From NCBI GenBank assembly GCA_900316955.1, contig ONEX01000025.1, positions 1 through 37,729 of the forward strand: 37,729 nucleotides of DNA, in the 5' to 3' direction. Each line of letters opens with the position of its first letter. Position 1 is the first letter of the stretch. The stretch comes from an uncultured Bacteroidales bacterium. GTDB lineage: Bacteria > Bacteroidota > Bacteroidia > Bacteroidales > UBA932. This document shows, piece after piece, positions 1,486 to 34,983 of the stretch. The position numbers and the translations under genes were made by a program. Under the pieces are notes generated by a model. The model worked only from the letters and a program-made list of their open reading frames with translations, was not told where the DNA came from and ran no database searches.

Positions 1486-2628
1486 ATGTTCTCGTTCCAG
1501 CTCACAGCCCGGGATCCCGGGTCTTCCGCCCGCGCGGGCGTGATCTCCACCGACCACGGGGAGATCCGGACCCCCATCTTCATGCCGGTGGGCACCGTCG
1601 GCTCGGTCAAGGGCGTGTACCACAAGGATTTGGAGGAGGACATCCAGGCCGAGATCATCCTCGGCAACACCTACCACCTCTATCTCCGTCCCGGCCTGGA
1701 CACCCTCCTCAAGGCCGGCGGCCTGCACCGGTTCGAGCACTGGGACCGGCCCATCCTCACCGACAGCGGCGGCTTCCAGGTCTTCTCCCTGGCCCCCATC
1801 CGCAAGCTCACCGAGGAAGGATGCCGGTTCGCCTCGCATATCGACGGCTCCCGCCACACCTTCACCCCGGAGAACAACGTGGACACGCAGCGCATCATCG
1901 GCGCGGACATCATCATGGCCCTCGACGAGTGCTGTCCGGGCGACGCGGACTTCCGCTACGCCGCGAAGTCCCTGCGCCTGACGCAGGGCTGGCTGGAGCG
2001 CTTCGCCCGCCATTTCGACGAGACGGACCCCCTGTACGGCTATGGGCAGACGATGTTCCCCATCATCCAGGGCTGCGTGTATCCGGACCTGCGGAAGCAG
2101 GCGGTGGAGCATGCGCTGGGCCTGGACAACGCGAACCGCGGCGGCTACGCCGTCGGCGGCCTCGCGGTCGGGGAGCCTACGGAGAAGATGTACGAGATGC
2201 TGGAGGTGACCTGCCCGCTCCTGCCGGAGGGCAAGCCCCGCTACCTGATGGGCGTCGGCACGCCGGCGAACATCCTCGAGGGCATCGCCCGCGGCATCGA
2301 CATGTTCGACTGCGTGATGCCCACGCGCAACGGCCGCAATGGCATGCTTTTCACATGGCAGGGCATCATGAACATGCGCAACGCCAAGTGGACGGACGAC
2401 TTCACCCCGCTGGATCCGGAAGGAACCTCGTTTGTGGACCATTATTATACCCGGGCGTACCTCCATCACCTGTTCGTCGCGAAGGAGATGTTCGCGGCGA
2501 TGGTGGCGACGGAGCACAACCTCGCCTTCTACCTGGACCTCGTCCGCACGGCCCGCCGCCATATCGAGGCGGGGGATTTCGCGGCCTGGAAGGACGTGAC
2601 TGTCAAAAAGCTGATGCAGAGACTGTAA
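1486..2628 (+). CDS. tgt: Queuine tRNA-ribosyltransferase (tRNA-guanine transglycosylase)
   Basis: A 380-residue TIM-barrel enzyme that swaps guanine-34 of GUN-anticodon tRNAs (Tyr, His, Asn, Asp) for preQ1, a step in queuosine synthesis. DSGGFQVFSL carries the active-site Asp93, GGYAVGGLAVGE (219-230) matches the substrate-binding loop, and FDCVMPTRNGRNG holds the expected nucleophile Asp275. Length is normal. One oddity: at 310-320, where the CxCxxC zinc ligands sit in E. coli and Zymomonas Tgt, this protein reads DPEGTSFVDHY with no cysteine, although the downstream His344 (EHNL) is kept. From memory other Bacteroidota Tgt proteins share this, so it is probably a lineage trait. It is the first gene of tgt-lptF/G-dut-murF; its stop overlaps the next start as TAATG. 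Confidence 0.95.
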   Translation: MFSFQLTARDPGSSARAGVISTDHGEIRTPIFMPVGTVGSVKGVYHKDLEEDIQAEIILGNTYHLYLRPGLDTLLKAGGLHRFEHWDRPILTDSGGFQVFSLAPIRKLTEEGCRFASHIDGSRHTFTPENNVDTQRIIGADIIMALDECCPGDADFRYAAKSLRLTQGWLERFARHFDETDPLYGYGQTMFPIIQGCVYPDLRKQAVEHALGLDNANRGGYAVGGLAVGEPTEKMYEMLEVTCPLLPEGKPRYLMGVGTPANILEGIARGIDMFDCVMPTRNGRNGMLFTWQGIMNMRNAKWTDDFTPLDPEGTSFVDHYYTRAYLHHLFVAKEMFAAMVATEHNLAFYLDLVRTARRHIEAGDFAAWKDVTVKKLMQRL

Positions 2629-3713
2629 TGGGAATCAAGAAACTCGACTGGTATATCATCAAGAAGTTCCTGGGGTCGTTCATCGTCGCCCTGGGCCTGC
2701 TGACGGTCATCGTCATCATCTTCGACGTGAGCGAGAAGATCGATGACTTCGTCCAGAAGGAGGCCCCGCTGAAGGCGATCGTCGTGGACTACTACCTGAA
2801 CTTCATCCCGTACTTCATGAACATGTACAGCCCGATGGTCGTGTTCCTGACGGTGATCCTGTTCACGTCCAAGATGGCGCAGAACTCCGAGATCGTCGCC
2901 ATCCTCTCCTGCGGCGTCAGTTTCCACCGGATGATGGTGCCGTACCTGGTGTCGGCCTGCATTGTCGCGCTGGCGTCGATGGGACTCGGCCTCTGGGTGA
3001 TCCCGCGGGCGAACGTGACGCGGGTGGCCTTCGAGCAGAAGTACAACCCCCGCGCGAAAGTCAAGTTCGGGCACGACATGCATTACAAGCTGGAGGACAA
3101 CAAGTTCGTGTATCTGGAGTCCTTCAGTTCCTGGAACAACACGGCGTACAACTTCACCCTCGAGCAGATTTCGGACGACCATATGATCTCCAAGCTCTCC
3201 GCGGAGTCGGCCCAGTGGGACAGCCTCAGCGGGAAGTGGAAGCTCCGCAACTGGTTCATCCGCGACTACGGCGAGGGACTCCAGGACCGCATCCGGTCGG
3301 GCAGCCAGCTGGACACGACCCTGAGCCTCACCCTCGACGACTTCTACTACAACGACTATACGATCGAGCAGCTGGACGCCAAGCAGATGGACCAGCTCAT
3401 CGACACCCAGCTCGCCCGCGGCGACGCGACCGTGATGTACGCCCAGATGCAGAAGCACCGGCGGTATTCGATGCCGCTGTCGGCCATCATCCTCACCATC
3501 ATCGCCGTGTCCCTGTGCTCGAAGAAGCGCCGGGGCGGCATGGGCTGGAACATCGCCGTGGGCCTGGCCCTCGGCTTCTCCTACGTCCTGTTCGAGCAGT
3601 TCAGCAAGATGTTCGTCGTGACGGACACCCTGCCTGCGGGCATCGCCACCTGGATCCCGAACATCCTCTATGCCCTCATTGCGGCGTTCCTGTACATCAT
3701 CGCTCCGAAATAG
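2628..3713 (+). CDS. LptF/LptG-family LPS export permease
   Basis: A 361-residue inner-membrane protein of the YjgP/YjgQ family, the transmembrane part of the LptB2FG ABC transporter that extracts LPS from the inner membrane for transport to the surface. It shows the family layout: hydrophobic helices at about 15-35, 55-85 and 100-125, a central periplasmic beta-rich domain at about 130-265, and three C-terminal helices (from about 280) including the [10 protein letters not shown] region. F and G paralogues cannot be told apart from this sequence, and Bacteroidota often annotate it simply as LptF/LptG. The ATG overlaps the tgt stop by one base (TAATG), indicating translational coupling. The stop codon lies inside the 34-base repeat at 3708-3741. 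Confidence 0.88.
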
Positions 3714-3741
3714 ATACTTCGACAAGCTCAGTATGACAAAA
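3708..3741 (+). repeat. 34-base stop-start junction repeat, copy 1
   Basis: This copy begins with AAATAGAT, which contains the lptF/G TAG stop. It continues with TCGACAAGCTC and ends with ATGACAAA, whose ATG starts dut. A second copy lies on the minus strand at 33801-33834 in exactly the same relation to another gene pair. The two align without gaps at 27 of 34 positions. The TCGACAAGCTC core resembles dispersed intergenic repeats seen in other bacterial genomes; that resemblance is from memory. Confidence 0.75.
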
Positions 3742-4167
3742 GTCAAAATCGTGAACAAGTCCGGCCAGCCCGTGCCGGCCTATGCGACCCCGCTTTCCGC
3801 CGGGATGGACCTCCGGGCCGTGCTCGAGGCGCCCGTCACCCTCGGTCCGCTGGAGCGGACCCTCGTTCCGACGGGCCTTTTCATCGCCCTGCCGGCCGGT
3901 TTCGAGGCGCAGGTGCGCCCCCGCAGCGGCCTCGCCGCGAAGCACGGCATCACGGTCCTGAACACCCCCGGAACCATCGACGCGGACTACCGGGGCGAGA
4001 TCAAGGTCATCCTCGTGAACCTGTCGAACACCCCGTTCGAGATCGTTCCCGGGGAGCGGATCGCGCAGATGGTCGTCGCCCGCCACGAGCGGGTGGAATG
4101 GGAGGAAACCGACAGCCTGGACGAGACCGAACGCGGCGCCGGCGGCTTCGGAAGCACTGGAAGATAA
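3733..4167 (+). CDS. dut: Deoxyuridine 5'-triphosphate nucleotidohydrolase (dUTPase)
   Basis: A 144-residue trimeric-type dUTPase hydrolysing dUTP to dUMP and PPi, keeping uracil out of DNA and feeding dTMP synthesis. All five family motifs are present in order: [37 protein letters not shown] and the glycine-rich [11 protein letters not shown] tail. The start at 3733 gives the standard N-terminus MTKVKIVNK; the frame is open upstream to 3670 but that part has no family match. The ATG lies inside the junction repeat at 3708-3741, 19 bases after the lptF/G stop. murF starts 3 bases after the stop, so the gene is co-transcribed. Confidence 0.95.
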
Positions 4168-5485: not shown

Positions 5486-5571
5486 ATTTGCCCGTAGGTC
5501 CACTGGAGGTACCTACGGGCAAATTTCAAAGGGTTATTTCTTCCCGTAGGTACTGCAAATGGACCTACGGG
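5486..5571 (+). repeat. Double-hairpin repeat, copy 1
   Basis: Two consecutive hairpins with the same stem core. The first pairs 5486-5499 (ATTTGCCCGTAGGT) perfectly with 5511-5524 around an 11-base loop. The second pairs CCCGTAGGT (5543-5551) with 5563-5571, also around an 11-base loop. The copy lies between the convergent ends of murF and the PAP2 gene and could act as a bidirectional transcript end, although no clear T tract follows. A related copy lies at 25356-25440. Confidence 0.8.
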
Positions 5572-5584
5572 CAAGGTGGGCAGG

Positions 5585-25355: not shown

Positions 25356-25440
25356 TTTGCCCGTAGGTCCAGTTGGAGGACCGACGGGTAAATTTTCGCG
25401 GGTTTTTCTTCCCCGTAGGTACTGCACGTGGACCTACGTG
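25356..25440 (+). repeat. Double-hairpin repeat, copy 2
   Basis: Same order and spacing as the copy at 5486. Hairpin 1 pairs 25356-25370 (TTTGCCCGTAGGTCC) with 25378-25392, with one mismatch and one G-T pair. Hairpin 2 pairs CCCGTAGGT (25412-25420) with 25432-25440 around an 11-base loop. The linker and the ACTGCA loop start are also conserved, so the whole unit of about 86 bases is duplicated, not just the stem. Confidence 0.78.
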
Positions 25441-25514
25441 CCATGAACCATAGATGGCAGATCGGCCATCGTTTCCGTACTCCTTCTACACGTCGAAGGC
25501 AATCTTCACTGGGC

Positions 25515-28929: not shown

Positions 28930-30941
28930 CAGTTCCGTTCCTCCTCGCAATACCGGGAGATCACGTTGTAGGCGTCGCCGATGCCGAGTTCGCCGGCCCG
29001 GGACAGGTCGATGCAGCCTTTCTCCTTGTCTTTCAGATAGATGAGGACGAGCCCGCGGTTGAAGTAGGCTTCGCCCATGTACGGATACAGGGCGATGGCC
29101 CGGCCGTAGCTGTCGATGGCGTTCACCAGCTGCTGGGACAGGCAGTACAGATTGCCCAGGTTGAACTGGATGTACGGCATCGCCGGCTGGAGGGTGGCCG
29201 CCTGCTCCATGTCGGCGAGGGCCTCCGAATAGTCGTAATGGCTCGTGACCTGCTCGCGGACCCGGGCGCGGGTGTTGCCCTTGTCATCCATCGTCAAGGT
29301 CTGGACGTTGGATTCGATGGAGGCGATGAAGTCGATCATCTCCGCCCGGAGGACCGCCCGGTTCATGTAATAGAACGCCTTGTAATAGGCGTCGTAGCGG
29401 TCGCCGCCCTCTTCCGCGATGGCGCGGTCGTAATGCGTCTGCGCCGCATTGTACTGCTTCTGGTCCAGCTCGGCGAGCGCCAGGAGGAACTCCCGGGCGG
29501 GACCCTGCGCGCTTCCGCCGTACAGGATGGCGTCCAGGGTCTCCTGCGAAGGCGACGGGATCTTCGACGCGTCTTCGGTAATGGTGACCGGCAGCGGCAG
29601 GGTGGCATAGAAGCGGTCCAGGAGCGGGTTCTCATACCGGTGCTCCAGCGCGTAGTTCGTATCGTCCCGGCCGGAGGCGAGGACGAACTTGTACAGCGGC
29701 TTGAGGTTGATGTCCACGTCGCGGTGCTGGAGCATCTCGTCGTCGAAGTCGTGCTTGGCGAATTCGGCGTCCAGGGTGAGCAGGGAACTGTATTTCTTGG
29801 TGGTGTCCGCGAACTCCGCGGCGCCGGAGGCGTTCTTCGCGCGGTACTCCGCGACCTTCCGCCGGCCGGTCTTGTAGTCCTCCCGCGAGGCGCGGTTCAT
29901 GCCCAGCTGGAGCTCCGCATAGGCCCGGTTCATATAGGCCTTGGCGAAATCCGGATACAGTTCGATGGCCTTGTTGTAGTCCGCGAGGGCGTCGTCCCAG
30001 CGGCCCATCTCCAGGAAGAAGCCGGCCCGGTTGAAGTAGGCCAGCACATTGTTCGGGTTGATGTTGATGACGCGGTCCATGTCCGACAGGGCCGCCGCGA
30101 AATCGCCCACCTGGGCCGAGATGAGGCTGCGGTTGTAGAGGGTGAGGGCGTTGCCGGGTTCGTGCCGGAGGACGGTGTTGAGGTCCGCCATCGCCTCGTT
30201 CAGGTGGCTTTGCTCGGAGTGCAGGATCGCGCGGTTGAAATAGGCCAGGGTGTTGGTGGTGTCCAGTTCGATGGCCTTGTCCATGTCCTTGATAGCGGCG
30301 TCGTAGTCGCCCTGCTCCGCGAGCAGGCGGCCGCGCCGGATGTAGCCTTCGGGCTCGAACCGGTCGATCTTGATGGCCTTGTTGTAGTCGTTCACCGCCT
30401 TGAGGGTGTCGCCCAGGAAGAGGTAGGAGGCGCCGCGGTTCAGGTAGGCCGACGGGTCCTTGGGCTCCTGGCGGATGTATTTGTCGAAGTCCTTGACGGC
30501 GGGCTCGAACTGCTGGCTGAGGAAGTACGTGACGCCGCGGGTGAAGTACAGGCCGGCTGAGCCGGGCCGGAGCGAAATCGCCTTCTCCAGGTCCTTCAGG
30601 GCGTCCTCGTAGTCGCCGAAGCGGCTGGCCGTGATGGCCCGGTAGTGGTAGCCGGAGGTGAAGACCGGGTTCAGGCGGACGGCGGTGTTGAAGTCCGTCC
30701 GGGCGCCGCGGATGTCGCCCAGGTTGTACTTGGCGATGCCCCGGTAGAAGAAGGTCCAGTAGTCGGTCGTATCCAGTTGCGCGAGGACGTTGAACTGGGA
30801 CACCGCCTCCGCCAGACGCCCTTCCGCCAGGGCGTTGCGGCCCCGGAACATGAAGACGTCCTTGTCATACTGCGCACGGGCCTCCAGGGTCCCCAGAAGC
30901 ACGGCGAGCAGGCAGATAAGCAGTTTTCCCTTACACTTCAT
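28929..30941 (-). CDS. Large periplasmic TPR protein
   Basis: A 670-residue secreted protein with a signal peptide (about 1-23, LLGTLEARAQ). The N-terminal part (about 30-360) has about ten tetratricopeptide repeats of 34 residues, for example AYFNRAGFFLEMGRWDDALA. A less regular region follows (360-560) and a second TPR block ends the protein (about 575-660). Such proteins are common in Bacteroidales and probably scaffold envelope complexes; no partner is identifiable. It is first in a leftward unit with the WalJ-like and PagL-like genes, divergent from the M28 peptidase gene. Confidence 0.88.
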   Translation of the reverse strand: MKCKGKLLICLLAVLLGTLEARAQYDKDVFMFRGRNALAEGRLAEAVSQFNVLAQLDTTDYWTFFYRGIAKYNLGDIRGARTDFNTAVRLNPVFTSGYHYRAITASRFGDYEDALKDLEKAISLRPGSAGLYFTRGVTYFLSQQFEPAVKDFDKYIRQEPKDPSAYLNRGASYLFLGDTLKAVNDYNKAIKIDRFEPEGYIRRGRLLAEQGDYDAAIKDMDKAIELDTTNTLAYFNRAILHSEQSHLNEAMADLNTVLRHEPGNALTLYNRSLISAQVGDFAAALSDMDRVININPNNVLAYFNRAGFFLEMGRWDDALADYNKAIELYPDFAKAYMNRAYAELQLGMNRASREDYKTGRRKVAEYRAKNASGAAEFADTTKKYSSLLTLDAEFAKHDFDDEMLQHRDVDINLKPLYKFVLASGRDDTNYALEHRYENPLLDRFYATLPLPVTITEDASKIPSPSQETLDAILYGGSAQGPAREFLLALAELDQKQYNAAQTHYDRAIAEEGGDRYDAYYKAFYYMNRAVLRAEMIDFIASIESNVQTLTMDDKGNTRARVREQVTSHYDYSEALADMEQAATLQPAMPYIQFNLGNLYCLSQQLVNAIDSYGRAIALYPYMGEAYFNRGLVLIYLKDKEKGCIDLSRAGELGIGDAYNVISRYCEEERN

Positions 30942-32429: not shown

Positions 32430-33809
32430 TCAGACGGACGCTCCCAGCCACTTGCCGCGCGCGATGCGGATGAGGAAGATGGTGCCCCGGAAAGTGAGTT
32501 CGACGGCCATCGCGATCCAGAAGCCCACGAGGCCATAGACCTTCACGAGGAAGATGGCGGGGAGGATGCGGACGATCCACATCGAAGTGAAATTCATGAC
32601 ACTCGGCCACTTGGTGTCGCCGGTGCCCACGCAGACGCCGTAGGCGACGATGGACGCGGCGTAGCCCAGCTCCGCAAAGGCCTCGATCCGGAGGACGCGG
32701 GCGCCCAGGGAGATGACCTCCCCGTCGGGGGAGAGCATGTGCATGAGCTCGGGGGCGATCGCGTACATCAGGATGGCCAGGAGGCCCATGATGCCCATCC
32801 CCAGGCCGATGGTGATCCAGGCGAAACGCTTGGCGAGCTCCTTGCGGCCGGCGCCGACGGACTGGCCCACCAGGGCCGTGGCCGCGTCGGCGATGCCGTA
32901 GCCGGGCATGTAGCAGAAGCTTTCCGCCGTGATGGCGAACGAGTTGGCCGCGATGGCGATGGTCCCGAGCGGGGCCACGATGATGGTCGAGGCGATGTAG
33001 CCGCCGCGGATGAGGATGTTCTGGAGGGCCATCGGGCCGCCGATGCCGGCCGCCTTGGCGATCACCTTCCCGGTGGGCCGGAAAGAGCCCTTGTCCTGCC
33101 GCAGGTTGAGTTCGGGGGAGCGGACGGTGAGGAAGTACAGCATCGCCATCGCCGTGATGAGCTCCGCCAGGCCCGTGCCCAGGGCCGCACCCACGACGCC
33201 CATGTCCAGCACGTAGATGAACAGGTAGTTGAAGCACACGTCCATCAGGCACATCCCGATGTTCAGGTAGCTGGGCACCTTCATATTTCCGCTTACCTGC
33301 AGCATTGACGCGCAGATCCAGTCGATCTGCATGAAGGGGAGGAAGGCGGAAACGATGAAGAAGTACTTCGTCGCGTCGGGGATGATTTCCGGAGTGCCGC
33401 CGAGCCAGCGGGGGAGCGGTCCCGCGATGGCCATCCCGATGAGGGCGATGGCGCCGCTGAAAGCGAGGGCGCTGACGAGCGCCTGCCGGAGCACCTCCCG
33501 GGCGGTCTTGAAGTCATTGGCCCCGATCAGGTGCGCGACCTGCACGGAAAAACCGCTGCCGCAGGCGCCGCAGAAGCCCATGAGCAGCCACATGCAGGTG
33601 GAAACCAGGCCGATGGACGCGCCCGCCGCCGCGCCGAGATGCCCCACCATCGACGTGTCGATGTACTGCATCAGCACGGACGACAGCTGGGCGATGATGG
33701 CCGGGTAGCTGAGCACGAGGCACAGCTTCAGCTGCTGCGCGCCTGTCAGCGTCCCTCCGCCCCGGATCTGGGCGAGCAAATAATCCTTTGAGCTGTCCCC
33801 CTTTGTCAT
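32430..33809 (-). CDS. MATE-family efflux transporter
   Basis: A 459-residue inner-membrane protein with twelve helices in two related halves, of the NorM/DinF-type multidrug and toxin extrusion family that exports cationic compounds using Na+ or H+. AQLSSVLMQYIDTSMVGHLG is the conserved first-helix segment and its equivalent in the second half is ANSFAITAESFCYMPGYGIA. The start ATG at 33809 lies inside the 34-base repeat at 33801-33834, as for dut. The gene follows GH53 by 19 bases and probably shares its transcript. It is convergent with the HEYGH gene, 13 bases away. Confidence 0.9.
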   Translation of the reverse strand: MTKGDSSKDYLLAQIRGGGTLTGAQQLKLCLVLSYPAIIAQLSSVLMQYIDTSMVGHLGAAAGASIGLVSTCMWLLMGFCGACGSGFSVQVAHLIGANDFKTAREVLRQALVSALAFSGAIALIGMAIAGPLPRWLGGTPEIIPDATKYFFIVSAFLPFMQIDWICASMLQVSGNMKVPSYLNIGMCLMDVCFNYLFIYVLDMGVVGAALGTGLAELITAMAMLYFLTVRSPELNLRQDKGSFRPTGKVIAKAAGIGGPMALQNILIRGGYIASTIIVAPLGTIAIAANSFAITAESFCYMPGYGIADAATALVGQSVGAGRKELAKRFAWITIGLGMGIMGLLAILMYAIAPELMHMLSPDGEVISLGARVLRIEAFAELGYAASIVAYGVCVGTGDTKWPSVMNFTSMWIVRILPAIFLVKVYGLVGFWIAMAVELTFRGTIFLIRIARGKWLGASV

Positions 33810-33834
33810 TTCGAGCTTGTCGAGAAATCTATTT
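33801..33834 (-). repeat. 34-base stop-start junction repeat, copy 2
   Basis: On the minus strand this begins AAATAGAT, containing the GH53 stop. It continues with TCGACAAGCTC and ends with ATGACAAA, whose ATG starts the MATE gene. It is gap-free relative to 3708-3741, with 27 of 34 identical positions. Differences fall mostly in two 3-base blocks flanking the core. In this copy the two blocks pair (TTTC with GAAA around CTCGACAAGCTC), giving a better palindrome than copy 1. Confidence 0.75.
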
Positions 33835-34983
33835 GAAAGCCTCCATCACGCTCGTCGCCTTTCCGCTTGTCGTGAAAGCGCCCATGTCATAGGGGTTCCA
33901 AGTTTCCTTCTTTCCGGTATACTTGTAAATCACGTCTGGGAGATTAAATAAGGCCGGTTTCCAATTACCGTCCACTTCCGGCTCCCAATAGAATACACCG
34001 GCGCACTTGTTGATTTTCTTCGCCTCCGTCATGAACTCGGCGAGGACCTGGGCGGCCAGTTTCTCATTCGCGGGCGTTTTCACGCCCACTTCCGAGATTA
34101 TAATGGGAACACCCATTGATGAAGCAAAAGCTTTTATGTTATTGATTGCTTGAGTGTTTGCTGTTTCCCATGGGATCTGGACTTTACCATTCCAGCTCTC
34201 CTGAGGATAGTGGGAAAGAGCAATCATATCAAACTTGCCGCCTTGTTTCTTGAAATTGGAAAGCCACCAGCTATCGTTACTCAGATCAAAAGCCTTGTCA
34301 ATATGAGGCATAACTAGAGTGGTTGGAAATACCGCTTTAACCGCATCGTAACCTGTATTATACAAGACCAAAAAGCGAGAAAACTCATTTTCCTTATCAT
34401 CATATTTCAAATCACCGGAACCAAACAGCATGCCGTTGCGGGTCTCGTTCCCGACCTGCACCCAGTTGGGCGTGACGCCGGCGTCCTGGAGGGCTTTCAG
34501 CACCTCCGCCGTATGGTCGGAGACGTGTTTGGCCATCTTGTCGAGGTCGTTCTTGTCGGCCTCCCAGGCGGCGGGAATCGTCTGGCGGGACGGGTCGGCG
34601 AAGAAGTCGCTATAGTGGAAATCGACCATCAGCGCCATGCCGGCCTTGGCGGCGCGGGTGGCGAGCTTGACGACATCGTCTTTGCCGCTCCAGCCGCCGG
34701 TGGGGTTCACCCACACGCGGAGGCGGATGGCATTGACACCCGTTTCCTTGAGAACATCCATGATGTCGGCCTTCGTCCCGGCCTTGAGCTGGAACGTGCG
34801 GCCGTCCTTCTCCATCTCCGACACCCAGGAGATGTCGGCCCCCTTGGCGAAGGAGGGCGTGGGGACGGGTTTCGGCTTTACCTCGGGATCGGGTTCGTCG
34901 GGCGTGACCGGGGCCGGCTTGGAACAGTTGCAGGCGGTCAGGAACAGGGTGGCGATGGCCAGGAAGAGTCGGGTCGTTTTCAT
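33829..34983 (-). CDS. GH53 endo-beta-1,4-galactanase, lipoprotein
   Basis: A 384-residue lipoprotein with lipobox LTAC at 15-18 followed by a Pro-rich linker (about 20-42), so probably tethered to the outer membrane. The rest is a glycoside hydrolase family 53 TIM barrel: FAKGADISWVSEME, NAIRLRVWVNP, acid/base Glu180 in QVGNE and nucleophile Glu298 in IISEVGV. It should cut beta-1,4-galactan side chains of pectin. No SusC/SusD or other galactan genes are nearby, so it is outside a typical utilisation locus. Residues about 185-296 are encoded by clearly AT-rich DNA (34096-34430) unlike the flanks. It follows recQ by 6 bases. Confidence 0.9.
   Translation of the reverse strand: MKTTRLFLAIATLFLTACNCSKPAPVTPDEPDPEVKPKPVPTPSFAKGADISWVSEMEKDGRTFQLKAGTKADIMDVLKETGVNAIRLRVWVNPTGGWSGKDDVVKLATRAAKAGMALMVDFHYSDFFADPSRQTIPAAWEADKNDLDKMAKHVSDHTAEVLKALQDAGVTPNWVQVGNETRNGMLFGSGDLKYDDKENEFSRFLVLYNTGYDAVKAVFPTTLVMPHIDKAFDLSNDSWWLSNFKKQGGKFDMIALSHYPQESWNGKVQIPWETANTQAINNIKAFASSMGVPIIISEVGVKTPANEKLAAQVLAEFMTEAKKINKCAGVFYWEPEVDGNWKPALFNLPDVIYKYTGKKETWNPYDMGAFTTSGKATSVMEAFK

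Follow-up and report, generated by a model that had tools for sequence, protein, structure and literature searches.

Use of a REP-like hairpin as stop and start is real and recurrent in this Bacteroidales genome, and we consider it very probable that the hairpin inserts at stop codons, with occasional capture of the start codon of the next gene. REPs are usually treated as extragenic; the family described here sits base-precisely in stop codons and appears to supply the starts of housekeeping genes, and starts of the form TAG...ATGACA, which are easily dismissed as mis-called, can be real in this group.

The analysis started from two 34-base copies of the repeat in the window (the whole stretch of 37,729 nucleotides analysed), located at 3708-3741 on the plus strand and 33801-33834 on the minus strand, which the original prediction described as the stop-start junctions of two unrelated gene pairs. 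This description was confirmed: by our own count 27 of the 34 positions are identical, six of the seven mismatches lie in two 3-base blocks, the frames check out for an element that supplies both the upstream TAG and the downstream ATG at either junction, and Pfam identifies the genes (Table 1) as the unrelated pairs LptF/LptG-dut and GH53-MATE. The blocks had been predicted to pair in copy 2, which they do (TTC/GAA), while the restriction to that copy did not hold, as ACT and AGT pair in copy 1; in both copies AT/AT extends the paired blocks to a 5-bp stem around TCGACAAGCTC. Within the element, TAG and ATG are separated by 19 nt. RNA folds of the two window copies reach only -1 and -2.2 kcal/mol, no better than shuffled sequences, and an RNA hairpin as their working form was set aside because of these weak folds. 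A search of the window with Rfam gave only a tRNA at the gathering threshold, and no curated RNA model matched the hairpin.

Table 1. Positions of the two hairpin copies and of the genes that they join in the window
Feature	Position	Strand	Details
REP-like hairpin, copy 1	3712..3738	+	AGAT-ACT-TCGACAAGCTC-AGT-ATGACA; stem arms 3714-3718 / 3730-3734
Invariant core/loop TCGACAAGCTC, copy 1	3719..3729	+	
TAG stop of LptF/LptG gene	3711..3713	+	T + element's AG
ATG start of dut	3733..3735	+	Within element's ATGACA; next ATG is codon 25, within dUTPase domain
LptF/LptG permease gene	2628..3713	+	Pfam PF03739, E 5.2e-72
dut (dUTPase)	3733..4167	+	Pfam PF00692, E 1.7e-33
REP-like hairpin, copy 2	33804..33830	-	AGAT-TTC-TCGACAAGCTC-GAA-ATGACA; stem arms 33828-33824 / 33812-33808
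Invariant core/loop TCGACAAGCTC, copy 2	33813..33823	-	
TAG stop of GH53 gene	33829..33831	-	T + element's AG
ATG start of MATE gene	33807..33809	-	Within element's ATGACA; next ATG is codon 47; different ATG in hairpin-free relatives
GH53 glycosidase gene	33829..34983	-	Pfam PF07745, E 6.3e-76
MATE transporter gene	32430..33809	-	Pfam PF01554, E 4.3e-56

The window copies, with the layout AGAT-NNN-TCGACAAGCTC-N'N'N'-ATGACA, belong to a single loop type within a large family of REP-like hairpins in their own genome. The pattern TCGACAAGCTCNNNATGACA matched this genome six times and its reversal not at all, while TCGACAAGCTC alone had 41 exact matches versus nine for the reversed string, and the contexts of these matches place this core in several hairpin types. 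The window's type, recognised by NNNATGAC after the core, accounts for eight matches, of which five are at same-strand junctions (LptF/G-dut, GH53-MATE, an oxidoreductase followed by a DUF1080-like gene, xseA-xseB and xseB-glgB) and three are between genes in other orientations; gene names outside the window come from our reading of the translations. With the more general pattern AGATTN{12,26}AATGAC there were 111 matches versus two for the reversed pattern, and among the 100 of these 111 places listed, five without a hairpin in their letters were left out. Across the family the loops vary (for example CCCGGTCAAGCCGGG, CCTTCGCTTCGCTCGG and TCTCGACAAGCTCGA) while the ends are constant, and stems of 8 bp occur in other loop types of this genome. 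The own-genome set used for counting comprises 110 hairpins, built by requiring AGAT and a clean stem and by dropping the five of 115 hairpins with less than 500 bases of flanking sequence; copy C35:104473 lies outside this set. In five loci (L061, L085, L093, L109 and L117) a copy is followed by tandem partial repeats of the 3' half of the element (CTCGAAATGACA and alike).

We expanded the search to 151 genomes of the same genus, drawn evenly out of a larger group, and found TCGACAAGCTCNNNATGAC in 28 of these and the reversed pattern in none. The variable triplets are fully complementary in 76 of the 85 genus hits, using eight pair types, where shuffles gave a mean of 29 and a maximum of 38. 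For copies from named genomes outside the genus set, among the matches listed, the figure is 110 of 123, with nine pair types (shuffles: mean 17, maximum 32). Judged from the letters, the hairpin fold is thus conserved by pairing, and the maintenance of pairing, combined with poor folding as RNA, suggests a role for the hairpin at the level of DNA. Several draft genomes have all their TCGACAAGCTCNNNATGAC hits on a single strand (seven forward and none reverse in G024, five and none in G066, none and four in both G113 and G003), although an arbitrary contig orientation would be expected in drafts.

Gene starts and ends were taken from a simple gene caller of our own. The 110 own-genome hairpins divide into 42 inside called genes, 36 located no more than 60 bases behind a same-strand gene, 22 that are only in front of an opposite-strand gene end, and 10 elsewhere. 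In 21 of the 36 copies behind a same-strand gene a TAG is located exactly at the edge of the element, and this does not depend on the window's loop type, without which the count is 17 of 31; the edge TAG is present in 12 of 21 copies that have a same-strand gene no more than 100 bases further downstream, as well as in 9 of 11 convergent ones. The null was derived from 278 kb of this genome, in which 104 same-strand junctions have a gap of no more than 60, and the 19 copies between codirectional genes whose gap without the element is also up to 60 were matched to it. Eleven of these 19 have TAG at the edge. Uniform insertion would place 6.3% there (p 3e-9) and insertion behind a T 24% (p 0.0014); the observed number is not clearly above the 40% expected for T|R sites (p 0.084). 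A T in front of the element was not clearly preferred in the own-genome copies which only precede the end of an opposite-strand gene (8/22, p 0.18), and a T preference as firm rule was dropped on this result; the raw count for the corresponding group of copies in the genus is 16/31.

In the genus, 82 of the 85 hits of the window's loop type form at least four of the five stem pairs, and the other three were dropped. Of these copies 31 follow a same-strand stop within 60 bases, 31 precede the end of an opposite-strand gene, six are in called genes and 14 elsewhere. The stop codon in the first group is most often T plus the element's AG (16 copies), followed by the TGA of ATGACA (6), a stop at -10/-11 (5), TG plus A (2) and other positions (2); when the own-genome copies and two orthologues are dropped, the edge TAG is still found in 11 of 24. 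The repeated bases at the ends make insertion at T|AG, at TA|G and after the stop all compatible with these data, and the ends and target of the element can therefore not be fixed. A tally of copies relative to stop and start codons, proposed with the original prediction, hence has two sides: most copies are elsewhere, while there is strong enrichment at the exact stop.

Beyond the genus, window-type hairpins were found in at least 119 stretches of named genomes holding 128 copies, of which five are shared with the genus set. Among the matches listed, 17 of the 123 copies outside the genus set are within 60 bases after a same-strand stop, only two have the T|AG arrangement and eight are in called genes, so that junction use is far more marked in the genus than in the named genomes listed. 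The records among the matches listed are from Bacteroidota as well as Kiritimatiellia, Verrucomicrobia, Clostridia, Fibrobacter, Nitrospinaceae, Alphaproteobacteria and others, a list of phyla that is provisional since MAG contigs can be misbinned. This spread is most simply read as mobility of the repeat. The expectation that a dispersed repeat forms the stop/start junctions of unrelated gene pairs is thus borne out by the recurrence of the edge TAG in own genome and genus, whereas a mainly dedicated intercistronic module is not supported by the proportion of copies behind a same-strand stop (31/82 in the genus, 17/123 in the listed named genomes).

With regard to start codons, in the own genome the called start of six genes is the ATG of the element, and the next ATG is at least 15 codons away: dut, the MATE gene, and cytidylate-kinase-like, nucleotidyltransferase-like (also in G003), aminotransferase-like and FtsW-like genes, the last four named by reading of their translations. 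The clearest of these is the MATE gene. In G003 there is no hairpin, and the GH53 end and MATE start are combined in a TAATG overlap (AAGTAATGGGC), while in G064 and G069 the MATE gene is behind a different gene, again without hairpin; at the level of sequence this comparison shows that the native ATG was lost at the window's MATE gene, the cleanest case of start capture. The other five genes are consistent with capture, and we infer that ribosomes use the ATGs of all six. In G017 a MATE gene seems, by reading, to start within a degenerate relative of the hairpin, at its ATGACA. Of the genus copies, 26 have a same-strand gene start within 100 bases downstream, and for seven of them this start was called at the element's ATG; in the remaining 19 the element's ATG is in frame in five, about as expected by chance, and unfused in-frame ATGs were therefore not counted as capture. 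The fused junctions have lost the native sequence as far as the ATG, which requires a second step in addition to insertion. In two loci with an lpxH-like gene beside an undecaprenyl-phosphatase-like gene (L112 and L126) the hairpin is reversed, no native ATG was seen, and the start was called at a TTG in the loop. Hairpins are also found in frame inside open genes (L052:4696-6195 on the minus strand, L402, L423, L438, L442, L453 and L456), examples being one between the catalytic and DALR domains of cysteinyl-tRNA synthetase and one in a protein that carries the DNA-binding domain of UvrA.

Comparison of orthologous junctions lacking the element, also proposed with the original prediction, pointed to insertion at xseB/glgB and MATE, the direction being less certain for dut and for the kinase-like and aminotransferase-like genes. 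The xseB/glgB junction is without hairpin in G064 and G003 (GAGGAATAATATGAA) and in G069 (an ATGA overlap), and is 27 nt longer in G000 than in G064, which is most simply explained by an insertion on the branch to G000. At murG/murC, G003 and G069 have an ATGA overlap, and a hairpin is present in G064, where it is of the window's type, and in G000, where its loop is different. The kinase-like gene is preceded by AAGATATGAACACG in G003 and by AAGATTTAG, hairpin and ATGACAAATACG in G000 and G064, and in G069 (L492) by TAGATTCCAGCATG (TAGATTCC), which resembles the left half of the hairpin and makes it uncertain whether this junction saw insertion or loss. The direction is likewise uncertain for the aminotransferase-like gene, as its junction in G069 has TAG and ATGAC without a hairpin. 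For dut, the junction reads AAGTAACATGAAAGTG in G069, while in G003 it has no hairpin, yet contains TAG and ATGAC (AAATAGTATGACCAAAGTC; AAATAGTATGACC), and may represent either the scar of a lost hairpin or the condition before insertion; shared sites of 37/46/28 and 52/33/38 in the tree of G000, G064 and G003 do not decide the direction. Where one close relative has the hairpin at a junction and another lacks it, the two form a natural pair for measuring the effect of a REP on translation of the next gene, and would also show how a coupled junction is dismantled in evolution.

Different loop types are found at the same junction in close relatives for murG/murC (L166 versus L168), the aminotransferase-like gene (L503, L504 and L505) and xseA/xseB (L372, L373 and L374). 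Loops thus appear to have been exchanged by recombination while the junction stayed.

The closest known systems are found in the accessible text of Di Nocera, De Gregorio and Rocco (2013, PMC3733652), which describes CGTC-tagged REPs in five phyla including Bacteroidetes, both intergenic and within genes, with four families that have an unpaired CGTC tag (TGTC and CCTC being allowed), complementary AT at stem positions 1-2, a stem of 8-9 bp, a loop of 4-5 nt and an unpaired tail which is mostly CCA, and with transposase genes that are not flanked. The element resembles these in its ATGACA/ATGACG ends, which are TGTCAT/CGTCAT in reverse complement (ATGAC being preset by the search pattern), in the AT stem end (the left AT, not in the pattern, is present in 80/85 genus hits, the right AT is preset by the pattern), and in that the RAYT-like (Y1_Tnp) genes are not flanked on both sides. 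It differs in the 5-bp stem and 11-nt core of the window type (a 2-nt bulge with two more pairs is possible by eye) and in a tail of CT followed by variable bases instead of CCA, and by comparison of letters its stem, loop and tail fit none of the CGTC families described in the accessible text. According to the same text, the termini of GTAG REPs often give a TAG stop to flanking ORFs, and many of the REPs located at N-termini may go untranslated; stop supply is thus known in kind, while start-codon capture does not appear in the accessible text. In the element, however, the TAG is supplied by the AGAT end and not by the side with the TGTC tag, there is no GTAG tag in the consensus, and unlike in the GTAG REP/RAYT system the RAYT-like genes are not flanked on both sides. 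Rickettsia RPE-4 and RPE-6 and Neisseria dRS3, listed there as CGTC repeats, are short palindromes of which some are within coding genes, and resemble the element by their description there. No REPs taking over start codons were found in a literature search that covered titles and the openings of abstracts, with most subscription papers outside it; searching for the peptide and core strings returned one paper, on miRNA and unrelated by its title and abstract.

In our preferred reading, the repeat is a mobile or formerly mobile hairpin of a family like the CGTC/TGTC-tagged REPs, with about 100 or more copies in this genome, which would enter narrow junctions between genes, at the stop codon or directly next to it. 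As the element begins with AG, a preceding T gives TAG and the upstream protein is kept, as the comparison at xseB/glgB shows. The ATGACA at the far end brings an ATG, from which the gene would begin where the native ATG is gone; in a second mode the upstream frame reads through the element and stops at the TGA of ATGACA, giving an ATGA overlap with the element's ATG as start. Insertion would be the direction also at sites beyond xseB/glgB and MATE, and the stop codon could be reached either because the element targets sites behind a T and in front of a purine or by selection. That there is no target rule, with insertion anywhere and selection keeping harmless or useful spots such as a stop codon restored by the AG, seems rather unlikely to us: the junctions are indeed short, with a median same-strand gap of 12 nt (133 pairs, own genome), and the 8/22 with T before opposite-strand gene ends show no clear preference, but uniform harmless insertion gives only 6% at the exact site versus the observed 11/19, and TAG is also found in 9/11 convergent copies, where a start codon does not limit the room. 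It is improbable that TAG and ATGAC were native and the hairpin was inserted between them, its ends only looking like its own; although the dut junction of G003 (AAATAGTATGACC) and the aminotransferase-like junction of G069 have both motifs without a hairpin, hairpin-free relatives have no ATGAC start at xseB/glgB, murG/murC and MATE, and copies far from junctions have the same ends.

The original prediction considered a translation reinitiation signal, which is neither shown nor favoured here: a selected cassette, in which a ribosome terminating at TAG unfolds the hairpin and resumes translation from its ATG, is quite improbable in our estimate. Replacement of the native ATG by the element's in-frame ATG at MATE would suit such a cassette, as would the six of 31 genus copies where the upstream gene stops at the element's TGA, giving ATGA overlaps with its ATG as start, and the different-loop hairpins held by the murG/murC and aminotransferase-like junctions in different species. 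However, the accessible part of a study of gene pairs (PMC10666635) reports near abolition of reinitiation at about 20 nt, and for its E. coli pairs a 40-80% drop at 14 nt, so that with the 19-nt gap reinitiation should be weak, not impossible; moreover, the window copies fold no better as RNA than shuffled sequences, and many copies precede opposite-strand gene ends or are in genes, with few at junctions outside the genus set among the matches listed. The ATGA and TAATG overlaps treated in that part of the study are also present at murG/murC and GH53/MATE in the hairpin-free relatives here, and by turning an overlap into a 19-nt gap the hairpin more likely weakens coupling than makes it. A wider version of the insertion reading is possible, if doubtful: REP hairpins in this genus would be exchangeable stop/start cassettes, which enter overlapping operon junctions, take over stop and start, loosen the coupling (or keep it via their own ATGA) and stay while their loops swap. 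If true, a selfish repeat would have become a working part of the starts of housekeeping genes.

A Y1 transposase (RAYT) was considered as mover of the element and not adopted, as the genes are not flanked by hairpins on both sides. Y1 transposase matches numbered four in the window's own genome, and were found in all 13 element-bearing genomes searched (of 28 such genomes; only element-bearing genomes were included), in 12 above the family cut-off. The 31 Y1_Tnp loci gave eight hairpin hits, six of these with AGAT and none on both sides of a gene, the nearest measured being 95 bases past the ORF (L208).

The window contains two further repeats. A second, unrelated repeat with inverted arms (TTTGCCCGTAGGTCC...) is present at 5487-5572 and 25356-25441, with 79% identity between the copies, outside called genes. 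Finally, a family of repeats with a spacing of 102 bases is located at 29965-30617 within a minus-strand gene, and these are probably protein repeat units.
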